A DNA stretch of 64,000 bases from Leucobacter sp. cx-328 (GTDB taxonomy: Bacteria > Actinomycetota > Actinomycetes > Actinomycetales > Microbacteriaceae), in the NCBI RefSeq assembly GCF_014530035.1, contig NZ_JACVMX010000001.1, positions 496,001 to 560,000 on the forward strand, given 5' to 3'. Below are positions 8,980-47,205 of this stretch, piece by piece. The position numbers and the translations under genes are program-made. The notes below the pieces were generated by a model. It had not been told where the DNA came from, did not search any database, and saw only the letters and a list, made by a program, of their open reading frames with translations. Every line of letters starts with the position of its first letter. Position 1 is the stretch's first letter.

Positions 8980-9073
8980 CAACCCCGCGAAAAGGGGTGT
9001 TTCTCCCGAAAAGGCCACTTTCATGCGTTTGAAAGACCCTATCTCGACAGAAACACCCCATTTCGCGGGGTTG
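8980..9073. repeat. 94-bp palindromic repeat, copy A
   Basis: A 94-bp imperfect palindrome running from CAACCCCGCGAAA to TTTCGCGGGGTTG. The arms match over most of their length (for example AGGGGTGTTTCT against AGAAACACCCC), and a central TTTCA...TGAAA stem is present. Three other copies of identical length occur at 36365, 46730 and 47112. It lies 26 bases after the CNNM gene stop and before the convergent metX, so it can fold as a long hairpin in either transcript. Its right end overlaps the first unit of the 25-bp tandem array. Confidence 0.9.
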
Positions 9074-9160
9074 GCGCAAGAAACTTTTCGCGGGGCGAGC
9101 GCAAGAAGCGTTTCGCGGGGTTGGCGCAAGAAGCGTTTCGCGGGGTTGGCGCAAGAAATG
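9061..9160. repeat. Four-unit 25-bp tandem repeat
   Basis: Exactly four 25-bp units (9061-9085, 9086-9110, 9111-9135, 9136-9160), each starting TTTCGCGGGG and containing GCGCAAGAA. Units 1, 3 and 4 differ only in their last few bases; unit 2 has CGAG in place of TTGG. The first 13 bases equal the right terminus of the adjacent 94-bp palindrome, so the array probably grew from its end. It lies in the spacer between convergent genes and ends 6 bases before the metX stop codon. Reading frames through it on either strand look like repeat translations, not proteins. Confidence 0.92.
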
Positions 9161-9166
9161 CGGATC

Positions 9167-10378
9167 CTAAACCGCAACCCCGAGCAACCGTGTGAGCTGC
9201 GCGCCAACAAACTCGAACTCAATCAAGAACGCATCGTGACCGAAGGGTGAGTCCAACCGCACGGCTCGATCGCCGTCGAGGGCGCCCGGTACGTGCAACG
9301 CGATCTCATCTTGACCGTCGAGCGTGAACAAGCGGTCGCTCGGAATGCCGATCACCAGCGTGGGAACCGTGATCGTGGTGAGCGCAGCACGCACACCACC
9401 ACGTCCGCGACCGACATCGTGTGAACTCATGGCCTGCACGAGTGTGAGGTAGCTGTTCGCGTCGAAACGGCGGGTGAACTTATTGCCGTGGAAGTCGAGG
9501 TACGACTCAACGGCGAAGCGCCCACCCTTGCCAAGTGGACTCACAGCAGACTGCCATGACCGGCCGAATCGCTCGTCAAGTTCGCGGTTACTGCGGTAGT
9601 TGAGCAGCGCGAGGCGGCGCGCGGTAGCGAGACCGTGGTGTGGGCCGATGCCGTCTGGGGCGTCGTAGTAGTTGCCGCCGCGGTAAGCAGGGTCAGAACG
9701 AATGGCTTCGAGCTGTACGAGGTTGAGGCCGATCTGATCCGCCGTGGTGACGGGCGGTGACGCGATCACCGCGAGGCGATCTGCGCGTTCGGGGTACATG
9801 ATGGCCCACTCAAGGGCGTGCATGCCGCCCATAGATCCGCCAATTACTGCAGCGAATTTCGGTACACCGAGCGCTTCGGTGAAGCGGGCTGCCGCGTGTA
9901 CTTGGTCACGAACGGTGAGGTACGGGAAGCGGCCTCCCCACTCGCGGTTGTCAGATGCGAGCGAGCCTGGTCCGGTCGATCCTTGACAGCCGCCAAGCAC
10001 GTTGGGTGCGATGATGCAGTACTTGTCGGTGTCGAGGTGCTTGCCAGGGCCGACGATTTCTTCCCACCAGCCGCTTGTCGCGTGGCCGGAGCTTGCGGGG
10101 CCAACGAGGTGACTGTCACCGGTCAGCGCATGAAACACGAGGATTGCGTTGTCTCGCGCCTCGTTGAGCTCGCCGAAGGTCTCGTACGCAATGCGCACGT
10201 GAGGGATCGTCTCGCCCGCCTCGGTATCGAGCGCTCCAATGTTCAGGAACTGACGATCGCCAACGGGGTCGCCGTCCCGCCAGCCGCCGGAAATCGGCGG
10301 ACGACCCATGAGCGCGCGCAACTGCGCGTCGGTGATGAAGTCTGTGGGAAATGAATCCTCGGGTGTCTGCCAGTCCAT
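9167..10378 (-). CDS. metX: Homoserine O-acetyltransferase
   Basis: About 403 residues. An alpha/beta-hydrolase-fold acetyltransferase that moves the acetyl group from acetyl-CoA to homoserine, the first committed step to methionine by direct sulfhydrylation. Marks are ALTGDSH, the nucleophile elbow IGGSMGGMHALEWA, and the C-terminal PFGHDAFLIE holding the catalytic His. The start is uncertain: ATG 10378 (MDWQTPED) has an AGGGAG immediately upstream, while ATG 10417 has no clear ribosome site. Its partner metY lies just upstream on the same strand, separated by a strong hairpin. The N-terminal GRPPISGGWRDGDPVGDRQF stretch fits actinobacterial MetX. Confidence 0.95.
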   Translation of the reverse strand: MDWQTPEDSFPTDFITDAQLRALMGRPPISGGWRDGDPVGDRQFLNIGALDTEAGETIPHVRIAYETFGELNEARDNAILVFHALTGDSHLVGPASSGHATSGWWEEIVGPGKHLDTDKYCIIAPNVLGGCQGSTGPGSLASDNREWGGRFPYLTVRDQVHAAARFTEALGVPKFAAVIGGSMGGMHALEWAIMYPERADRLAVIASPPVTTADQIGLNLVQLEAIRSDPAYRGGNYYDAPDGIGPHHGLATARRLALLNYRSNRELDERFGRSWQSAVSPLGKGGRFAVESYLDFHGNKFTRRFDANSYLTLVQAMSSHDVGRGRGGVRAALTTITVPTLVIGIPSDRLFTLDGQDEIALHVPGALDGDRAVRLDSPFGHDAFLIEFEFVGAQLTRLLGVAV

Positions 10379-10476
10379 ACTCCCTATTGTGGACTGGTTC
10401 AGAAATTCGCGTGACATTGTTACGGAACCGGGTTGGGGCAGTGGTGGCGGATCCGCACACCCCACCACACACAACG

Positions 10477-10524
10477 ACGCGGGCGCTGCCCGGGCCCCAA
10501 ATGGAGCTCAGGCAGCGCCCGCGT
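10477..10524 (-). terminator. Hairpin between metY and metX
   Basis: A perfect 14-bp inverted repeat (ACGCGGGCGCTGCC / GGCAGCGCCCGCGT) with a 20-base loop lies 20 bases after the metY stop and about 100 bases before metX. There is no U-tract, so it may be a partial terminator or a processing and stability hairpin that sets different levels for the two methionine genes. Confidence 0.65.
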
Positions 10525-10544
10525 GCAGCGTGCGTAGCCGAAGG

Positions 10545-45199: not shown

Positions 45200-45286
45200 T
45201 ATTCCAGGTGTCCCGGTTTACTGTCTGAAGCGGGATATTACGTCGGCGCGCCAAGATCCGCCTGGGAATCTAATAGGATGGGTCGC

Positions 45287-46708
45287 ATGTCCAAGGTTCT
45301 TTCTTCTCTTCCCGTAGGCGAGCGCGTCGGCATCGCCTTCTCCGGTGGTCTCGACACCTCGTGTGCTGTGGCATGGATGCGCGAAAATGGCGCGATTCCC
45401 TGCACCTACACCGCTGACATTGGTCAGTACGACGAGCCCGACCTTGATGGTGTCGCAGCGCGCGCCAAGGAGTACGGTGCAGAGATTGCCCGACACGTTG
45501 ACGCGAAGCGTGCACTCGTCGAGGAGGGCTTCGTCGCGCTCCAGACCGGTGCTTTCAACGTCCGTTCGGGCGGCAAGACCTACTTCAACACCACCCCGGT
45601 TGGTCGTGCTGTCACCGGCACCCTCCTCGTGCGTGCAATGAAGGAAGATGACGTCGACATTTGGGGCGACGGCTCGACCTACAAGGGCAACGACATCGAG
45701 CGTTTCTACCGCTACGGTCTCATGGCAAACCCGAGCCTGCGCATCTACAAGCCATGGCTGGACAGCCAGTTCGTTGAGGAGCTCGGCGGCCGCGCAGAGA
45801 TGAGCGAGTGGCTCGTTGCAAACGGCTACCCGTACCGTGACTCGACCGAGAAGGCATACTCGACCGACGCAAACATCTGGGGAGCGAGCCACGAGGCAAA
45901 GCACCTCGAATTCCTCAACAACGGCCTGGACATCGTCGAGCCCATCATGGGTGTTGCAGCATGGCGTGAAGACGTCGAGGTTCTCACCGAAGAGGTCTCG
46001 GTTCGCTTCGAAGCAGGTCGCCCGGTTGCGATCAACGGAGTTGAGTACGACGATCCCGTAGCGCTTGTGTACGAGGCAAATGCAATCGGTGGCCGTCACG
46101 GCCTCGGTATCTCGGATCAGATCGAGAACCGCATCATCGAAGCGAAGTCGCGTGGCATCTACGAGGCTCCGGGTATGGCTCTGCTGCACATCACCTACGA
46201 GCGCCTCGTCAACGCAATCCACAATGAGAACACCCTCGCTTCGTACCACAACGATGGTCGCAAGCTTGGTCGCCTCATGTACGAGGGCCGCTGGCTCGAT
46301 CCCGAGTCGCTCATGCTTCGCGAGGCACTGCAGCGCTGGGTTGGCTCGGCAGTGACCGGTGAGGTCACCCTGCGCCTCCGCCGTGGCGACGACTACACGA
46401 TCCTCAACACCGAGGGCCCGAACCTCAGCTACCATCCCGAAAAGCTCTCGATGGAGCGCACCGTGGGTGCCGCGTTCGGTCCCCAGGACCGTATCGGTCA
46501 GCTCACCATGCGTAACCTCGACATCGCTGACTCGCGTCAGCGTCTCGAGCAGTACGCGGCACTCGGCCTCGTCGGCGGCGCTACGGCAGCACTCGTTGGC
46601 AAGCTCGAAGCAGGCGGCGCATCGGAGATCGCGAACGCTGTTGGTGGGATCGACCAGGAGGCCGACACCCTCGGCCTCTCGGCTGCGTTCGATGCAGGCA
46701 CCGACTAA
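45287..46708 (+). CDS. argG: Argininosuccinate synthase
   Basis: 473 residues. It joins citrulline and aspartate to argininosuccinate using ATP. The ATP motif [15 protein letters not shown] is at about residues 17-31, and [16 protein letters not shown] follows. The length and the [20 protein letters not shown] block match the long E. coli-type subfamily rather than the about 400-residue type. It stands alone, with no argH beside it. ATG 45287 is chosen; ATG 45278 is in frame, and the frame runs far upstream into hrpA without meaning. Two palindromic repeats follow it. Confidence 0.95.
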
Positions 46709-46729
46709 GCCTTAGCTGCTTTTACGGGC

Positions 46730-46823
46730 AAACCCCTCGAAACGGGGCCTTTCTCTCGAAAACGATAGTTTCAACCCGTTGAAACTATCTGTCTCGGCAG
46801 AAACGGCCCTTTTTGAGGGGTTT
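46730..46823. repeat. 94-bp palindromic repeat, copy C
   Basis: A 94-bp imperfect palindrome from AAACCCCTCGAAACGGGG to TTTTTGAGGGGTTT, with a central GATAGTTTCAA...TTGAAACTATC stem of high quality. It aligns with copies A, B and D without gaps. It starts 21 bases after the argG stop and could act as its terminator. Confidence 0.92.
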
Positions 46824-47111
46824 ACTCGTGTTTGGGGTGTGCGTGAGTGGCCCCTCCCGCCCTTGCTCGGACTCAGCTAGGAGCGGTCAACGAGCTTGCG
46901 CAAGCTTCAGCCGGTGTCGGCTAGGTCAGCGGTGTGAGGCGGAGCCACTTTGACCCGCATGGCGGACAAACCTCCCCATCCCCAGCCTTCGCCGGGGAAA
47001 GAATGGGCCGGCCTCGCGGCCGGGCGGCCTTATTGAATCCACCAGGCCCTCTGTGGGGTGAGGGCGTGCGTGTTTTGCCCTCGCAGCTCGCGGTTTCCGC
47101 GGCCGCCGGGC
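46824..47111. other. Non-coding spacer between repeat copies C and D
   Basis: No gene can be supported on either strand. A 14-bp palindrome AGCTTGCGCAAGCT lies at 46893-46906, and GC-rich hairpins (such as GGCCGGCCTCGCGGCCGG near 47003) are present. Short frames here look random. Confidence 0.6.
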
Positions 47112-47205
47112 CAACCCCTCGAAACAGGGTGTTTCTGCCGAGAACTATAGTTTCAGCCGGCTGAAACTAGCCATCTCGGCAGAAAGCGCCCATCTCGCGG
47201 GGTTG
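47112..47205. repeat. 94-bp palindromic repeat, copy D
   Basis: From CAACCCCTCGAAACAGGG to TCTCGCGGGGTTG, 94 bases, with a perfect central AGTTTCAGCCGGCTGAAACT palindrome. The right end continues with ACCCA, mirroring the TGGGT before copy A. It is the second copy in the argG/whiB gap, 288 bases from copy C. Confidence 0.92.

Follow-up and report, generated by a model that had tools for sequence, protein, structure and literature searches.

What are the four imperfect palindromes that lie between genes in this part of the Leucobacter sp. cx-328 genome, and what has kept them there? The window, i.e. the whole stretch of 64,000 nucleotides analysed here (contig NZ_JACVMX010000001.1, positions 496,001 to 560,000), was described in an initial annotation, made from the letters alone, as carrying four palindromes of exactly 94 bp. 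All four were found again at the coordinates in Table 1, with this length and with an end-to-end alignment free of gaps, and they are confirmed as a real fixed-length intergenic family without a named match in Rfam. We read them as a class of REPIN/ERIC-like repeats whose frame is new, and which has long been resident in the cx-328 lineage, where it is partly under selection. We give a probability of about 0.5 to the explanation that the copies are dispersed, non-autonomous, dyad-symmetric repeats of the REPIN/ERIC type, whose boxes are read as DNA by a putative trans-acting protein. This explanation is built on the copy number, the fixed frame, the largely independent arms, the divergence of boxes versus words, the placement at gene 3' ends, the distribution in the order and the lineage-specific words.

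In the whole genome (2.64 Mb, 14 contigs), 88 places match the box-frame pattern with at most two mismatches, and the same pattern read backwards matches none. A covariance model built from the four window copies (R1) returned those four alone in the window, and on the whole genome gave 150 scored matches at no fewer than 81 distinct places (150 of 582 candidates were scored). A second model (R2), built from 82 copies, adds a few copies beyond R1 together with extra matches in fetched stretches. The further copies that the initial annotation proposed to look for with a covariance model are thus not few, with about 88 places by the frame pattern. Eighty-two of 85 extracted copies fill the 94 columns without gaps, and the remaining three are gapped in the core. 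The layout consists of four CGARA/TYTCG boxes, two per arm at a pitch of 19 bp with the arms inverted, each box being followed by a variable word of 7 bp. The consensus is CAACCCCnCGARA - 7 variable - TTTCTnCCGARA - 7 variable - TTTC(8)GAAA - 7 variable - TYTCGGnAGAAA - 7 variable - TYTCGnGGGGTTG. The 94-bp element has the inverted ends CAACCCC/GGGGTTG, and its right end GGGGTTG is followed by A/G and C/G, with no T run or U tract.

An artefact of chance or composition is refuted for the cx-328 genome by the 88 places against none in the reversed control, and we regard it as practically negligible, with nothing in its favour, because the exact frame read backwards was absent from 398 and from 396 genomes and half-sites in the window number 7 against 0.13 expected, all seven inside elements. 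Rfam at gathering thresholds gave no match in the window or in 16 loci with relatives, which agrees with the earlier remark that no described family with this consensus was known. By title and abstract, we recognised no description of such repeats in Leucobacter, Microbacteriaceae or Micrococcales, most subscription journals being outside the coverage. A phage origin was rejected, as copy 1 had no match in a phage collection.

Placement was mapped on genes called with our own codon-usage script. Among 84 classified copies in cx-328, 50 are convergent, 29 tandem and 5 divergent; the full list of 86 also holds one copy inside a called gene and one at a contig edge. The initial annotation had placed all copies between convergent gene ends and never in genes: the first holds for the four window copies and fails genome-wide, and the second holds for nearly all copies, with the single exception among 86. 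Judged from placement alone, protein coding by the element is unlikely. Elements favour sites just behind gene 3' ends over 5' ends. Adjacent 3' ends are often 10-50 bp from the element, and adjacent 5' ends are all at least 38 bp away. In the window plus six added stretches, which were non-random because they were picked by synteny as likely counterparts of sister-species copies without a known partner, an element occupies 3/11 convergent, 0/21 tandem and 0/18 divergent gaps of at least 94 bp. For relatives outside the genus, 58 distinct places were 32 convergent, 20 tandem, 4 divergent and 2 inside genes. In the same loci, two of which enter twice, the gaps of 67 bp or more that lack an element were 6 convergent, 20 tandem and 23 divergent. 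A single gap can hold two or three elements (L029; window 46730/47112).

Is the folded form what selection keeps, as the initial annotation suggested from compensating arm changes? For each of the four window copies, on both strands, all or nearly all of 200 dinucleotide shuffles fold less well (z -3.1 to -10.2; 2/200 shuffles equal the fold of copy 36365 on the plus strand). Over the family, the arms match at 31.6 of 47 positions within a copy and 30.3 between copies, and 0.76 of this 1.34 excess comes from four central pairs, the remaining 43 pairs contributing 0.58. Column by column, z is 3.3-6.0 for the central pairs, and weaker signals lie at columns 6-7/88-89 and 28-30/65-67 (z 2.6-3.8). 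Slid partners pair in 39-51% of cells. The A/G position of the outer box does not track its T/C partner (columns 12/83: A-T 33, G-T 12, G-C 9, other 28). It means that the arms vary largely independently and compensating change is clear in the central pairs only. What remains of the earlier proposal is a small excess (reached by 0/500 shuffles), mainly central and weak elsewhere; the idea that compensating changes reflect selection for a folded form appears weak or wrong, because four pairs at the centre supply more than half of the excess, and among compensating base pairs only the central ones stand out clearly.

The words behave in the same independent manner. In the Leucobacter genome they include AGGGGTG, TCGACCC and AGGCCCC, and identical heptamers across the four slots, read centrewards, make 210 pairs against 70 expected by column shuffles (maximum 98). 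Columns depend on one another mostly at short range (mean z 1.5 up to a distance of 6 columns, 0.11 at larger distances). So the slots draw from a common word list, largely regardless of one another. Identical words in non-mirror slots were 0, 0 and 0, although slots 1 and 3 shared 2 against 0.30 expected.

These results bear on the explanation that the elements are bidirectional intrinsic terminators or 3'-end protecting hairpins, at which the transcript of either gene folds and ends or is protected. Like intrinsic terminators, they can form stem-loops just behind stop codons; the strong folds on both strands, the preference for 3' ends, the small yet significant pairing excess, and short convergent gaps filled by elements in relatives (to within 13 and 7 bp of the two stops in one case, 3 and 5 bp in another) all speak for it. 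We nevertheless consider it rather improbable. The consensus lacks a U tract, the 82 copies show little covariation beyond the centre, and it is the box letters that are conserved instead of the pairing, in contrast with Bacillus cereus intrinsic terminators, which switch in a compensating manner between close strains (PMC5381666). Moreover, another hairpin lies nearer a stop in two of the three window gaps (47280-47332, with a T run; 36026-36082), and two or three elements in one gap would be superfluous for termination.

Comparison with the sister species, Leucobacter sp. cx-42 (G037), showed what is kept over time. Partner loci were found for 52/82 copies at first pass, and with added stretches 66 of 83 were mapped and 17 unmapped. 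On a box score out of 62 (at least 48 a clear element, 38-47 a weaker one), 59 of the 66 mapped sites keep the element in G037, 53 clear and 6 weaker, a proportion in which well-kept copies may be favoured, as most G037 loci were fetched via an R2 match. Seven mapped sites lack it (L011 twice, L034, L041, L043, L055 and L075). At L041 and L043, G037 retains one element end, which indicates deletions; the differences at L034, L055 and L156:1501 are neither clear deletions nor clear insertions. In the reverse direction, 58 of 76 G037 copies were mapped and no fewer than 55 of these have the element in cx-328; among the remaining three, L156:1703-1796 shows an aligned counterpart. In 52 orthologous pairs, conserved block columns differ at 74/2111 (3.5%), word columns at 183/1455 (12.6%) and variable block columns at 149/1276, and alignable flanks differ at 1952/18557 (10.5%) when non-coding and 6406/96408 (6.6%) when coding. 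The divergence of the boxes is below that of the words and the non-coding flanks, and therefore the conserved part is under selection while the words drift. Changes also clump within words (11/207 words with four or more changes, about 5.6 expected).

Beyond this pair, R2 matched 23/54 Leucobacter genomes at E 1e-3 and, as the search of other Microbacteriaceae proposed in the initial annotation, 24/398 family genomes at 1e-4, in 12/85 genera. We also used an exact frame, CGARA-14-CGARA-(12 to 42)-TYTCG-14-TYTCG, in which the boxes and the 19-bp pitch are preset and the centre is free. It occurs in 38/398 family genomes (14/85 genera), in 53/396 order genomes (16/110 genera, seven families) and in 8/296 class genomes, all eight of the own family, with no reversed match in any of the three draws. 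In the class draw it was absent from 269 genomes of other orders and from 13 genomes of other families in the own order. A fixed 78-bp frame allowing two mismatches matched 31/54 Leucobacter genomes, with 88 places in cx-328, 79 in G037, 20 in G017, 18 in G034, 12 in G045 and 0-6 elsewhere. Its reversed control gave one or two matches in 4/54 genomes and some single frame matches resemble coding sequence, so single loose matches in other species can be chance.

The frame has preferred sizes. When 60-90 bp was permitted, the places listed measured 66-69 bp (138/169), 77-79 bp (22) or 87 bp (9), and no others. Among the matches listed, lengths in the family draw were 66 (1), 67 (29), 68 (34), 77 (1), 78 (20), 79 (1) and 87 (3), and in the order draw 67 (7, one a duplicate), 68 (65), 69 (2) and 87 (6). 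The main sizes are 10 bp apart, with a centre of about 20 or 30 bp, and several 87-bp frames contain a 68, which leaves them with one additional 19-bp unit. Part of the pattern can be accounted for by common descent. G157 and G374 have both main sizes within one genome, the two sets of G157 differing in words and size, and a Leucobacter relative (G049) uses an 18-bp pitch.

The letters after CGAGA vary by lineage (CCTGA in G303, CTGCA in G374, CCCC in G306, CACC in G400). In G017, where 18 of 20 copies were used and two with 2 mismatches omitted, 48/72 slots are AAGCA, AGCCA or ATGCA, and 7-mers coincide in 113 pairs where shuffling predicts 55 (maximum 108). Mirror slots there share a word 3 and 1 times (3.4 and 2.4 expected), slots 3 and 4 share one 7 times (3.2 expected), and arm matches are 27.0/39 within copies versus 28.0 between. 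Seven other genomes supplied small sets, altogether 40 stretches from the matches listed; own and cross arm values are close in G374, G400, G154, G316 and mostly G373 (linker 0.54 vs 0.38), and G306 has some within-copy excess in the inner word. In G690, two copies near the two contig ends are identical, as are their flanks over 901 and 1500 bp, which points to an assembly or segmental duplicate. Near-identical tandem elements 130-215 bp apart were seen in G399 (C37:4001 and 4215) and G374 (C1:2480638-2480969), possibly local amplification. DNA uptake sequences of Neisseria and Haemophilus also have a conserved core with lineage-specific dialects, and many of them form inverted pairs behind genes. 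The Leucobacter-type element resembles them in its dialects; unlike them, it has no single copies in the window, where no lone half-site of the uptake kind was found.

The elements could instead be purely host-owned DNA landmarks, such as insulators or sites for gyrase or a nucleoid protein, never mobile, with a protein specificity shifting between lineages; such a role has reportedly been proposed for BIMEs. Purifying selection on the boxes at orthologous sites, the location where convergent transcription meets and size classes 10 bp apart are in its favour. The range from 0 to 88 copies within one genus and the two sets of G157 fit bursts of spreading better, and we hold the landmark explanation to be slightly less probable than the terminator one.

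For dispersed palindromes of bacteria the mover is known in few cases, among which the RAYT of REPs is described best. The initial annotation suggested a REP/BIME or miniature mobile element, and the type is right inasmuch as this is a fixed-length intergenic palindromic family; the REP-associated tyrosine transposase (RAYT) that it proposed to look for was not found. The Y1_Tnp profile (PF01797) matched 0/18 element-bearing genomes of 7 genera, cx-328 included, and 6/14 control genomes. REPINs, the REP doublets of Pseudomonas, are described in PMC3116915 as inverted units at specific distances, extragenic and hairpin-capable, with three kinds in SBW25, and in PMC8049555 as forming lasting populations. 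The Leucobacter element shares the inverted doublet with fixed spacing, the extragenic position and more than one kind per genome, which is why a REPIN moved by a RAYT deserves mention. It is unlike REPINs in lacking a detectable Y1/RAYT transposase, in having four boxes at a 19-bp pitch where a REPIN has two REPs, in half-sites that never stand alone in the window and in words largely independent between arms. Given the profile result, from which a RAYT below profile sensitivity would escape, we think a RAYT-moved REPIN very unlikely.

ERIC is likewise an imperfect palindrome with lineage-dependent copy number and an unknown mover. According to PMC2229807, ERIC/IRU of enterobacteria is an intergenic repeat with a set length of 127 bp, given with target duplications and TA ends. 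The Leucobacter element is also an intergenic repeat of set length, unlike ERIC in having no target duplications, another host group and a box comb with lineage-specific words. With bacterial miniature inverted-repeat elements it shares terminal inverted repeats, a size below 200 bp and, judged from placement, the lack of an encoded protein. That it is such an element of an ordinary cut-and-paste transposon would suit the inverted ends and the many copies; the 82 copies have no target duplications and the absent sites L041 and L043 are deletions with one end kept in the sister, and we find this only marginally less doubtful than movement by a RAYT.

In the explanation by dispersed REPIN/ERIC-type repeats, four things go beyond the data and are put here conditionally: the existence of a protein, the form of DNA that it would read, an earlier spread of the copies and a benefit to the host. 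The conserved part is a comb with four CGARA boxes. Most likely it would be read as DNA, double-stranded (or extruded), with the putative trans-acting protein sitting on the dyad as a multimer. This protein or its ancestor might have spread the copies, which would survive mainly just behind gene 3' ends. In the cx-328 lineage, copies would now be vertically inherited with the boxes under purifying selection.

Several results weigh against this explanation. No moving copy was caught, the closely inspected differences between the sister species being deletions or unclear. Target-site duplications of k=4 were found at 0/82 copies against 1.19 expected, k of 3-6 with shifted edges gave no excess, and k=8 gave 1 against 0.4. 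A mover gene flanked by elements did not emerge either: for the listed pairs of copies 150 to 4000 bp apart in two Leucobacter species, the translations between them (first 400 residues) looked ordinary as judged by eye without a profile search; one such gene, at L070/L101, we take to resemble an AbiEi-type or DUF559 protein. With two mismatches, 23/54 Leucobacter genomes have no match, and so patchy a distribution in the genus makes an essential role less likely. Shared descent, instead of helical phasing, could underlie the two size classes. As for folding, paired cells in the 82 copies are 73.1% versus 71.4% when shuffled (standard deviation 0.5) and the covariation score is 0.170 versus 0.147, neither reached in 500 shuffles, a significance that relatedness of copies can inflate; pairs changed on both sides number 31 against 26.7 expected (6/500 shuffles). 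Mirror slots carry identical words in 8 and 5 of 82 copies against 0.27 and 0.41 expected, which could be whole-word copying between arms or pairing selection in some copies. In several relatives, both within the genus and beyond it, the element is a near-perfect hairpin, and in G424, with two subfamilies, the arm match within copies clearly exceeds that between copies. Because of the pairing excess, the mirror words, the hairpins and G424, the folded form may matter at times.

A wider proposal can be offered only tentatively: a RAYT-independent repeat class across one order, with a four-slot word frame, slots filled largely independently from a small lineage-specific lexicon and a constant CGARA frame with a size shifting by about one helical turn, read by a putative fast-evolving DNA-binding family that would propagate the elements and use them as boundaries between convergent transcription units. 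Because a sizeable repeat class with a rigid frame and words that differ by lineage spans many genera, and a RAYT is not detectable there, a direct search for the missing protein is possible. What convergent gene ends require or can tolerate may also be studied in the many natural experiments that the family provides. A further lesson is a warning: when single copies fold well, this is weak evidence that selection acts on RNA structure.

The genes around the window copies encode a CNNM domain protein, an alpha/beta hydrolase, an ABC transporter, a TPP enzyme, argininosuccinate synthase and WhiB (Table 1).

Table 1. Palindromic elements of the window, with the boxes of copy 1 and the neighbouring gene ends.
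Feature	Coordinates	Strand	Remarks
Copy 1	8980..9073	.	CNNM-domain gene end 8953 (+); alpha/beta-hydrolase (metX-like) gene end 9167 (-)
Copy 1, outer left box CGAAA (CGARA type)	8988..8992	+	word AGGGGTG next
Copy 1, inner left box CGAAA (CGARA type)	9007..9011	+	19 bp past outer box
Copy 1, inner right box TCTCG	9042..9046	-	
Copy 1, outer right box TTTCG	9061..9065	-	
Copy 2	36365..36458	.	ABC-transporter gene end 35942 (+); TPP-enzyme gene end 36543 (-); lowest score among the four
Copy 3	46730..46823	.	argG stop 46708 (+), 21 bp before
Copy 4	47112..47205	.	same argG/whiB gap as copy 3; whiB stop 47370 (-), 164 bp away

The hairpin with the T run at 47280-47332 (minus strand) lies directly behind whiB and looks like its own intrinsic terminator. 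Those at 36026-36082 (a 20-bp hairpin behind the ABC gene) and 17718-17770 are very stable ordinary hairpins (z -8.0 and -7.7), and they sit in convergent gaps with the repeat present or absent. Elsewhere in the genome, five copies (L030, L033, L041, L049 and L050) have in common that CTTGAGCGTGTC or a close variant stands 20 bp to the left, at a constant distance from the left end of the element, and are perhaps a longer subtype. Short GCGGGGTT(C/G) repeats continue past the right end at L051 near 1997, L060 near 4223 and L017 near 1614. Several copies have CACAG or CTGTG in place of the usual box letters (e.g. L015:899-992, L026, L055, L062 and L074), and at L015:899 the replacement affects both arms. 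Contig C7 of G000 (390 kb) holds 4 copies among the matches listed for the covariance models, where about 13 would be expected.

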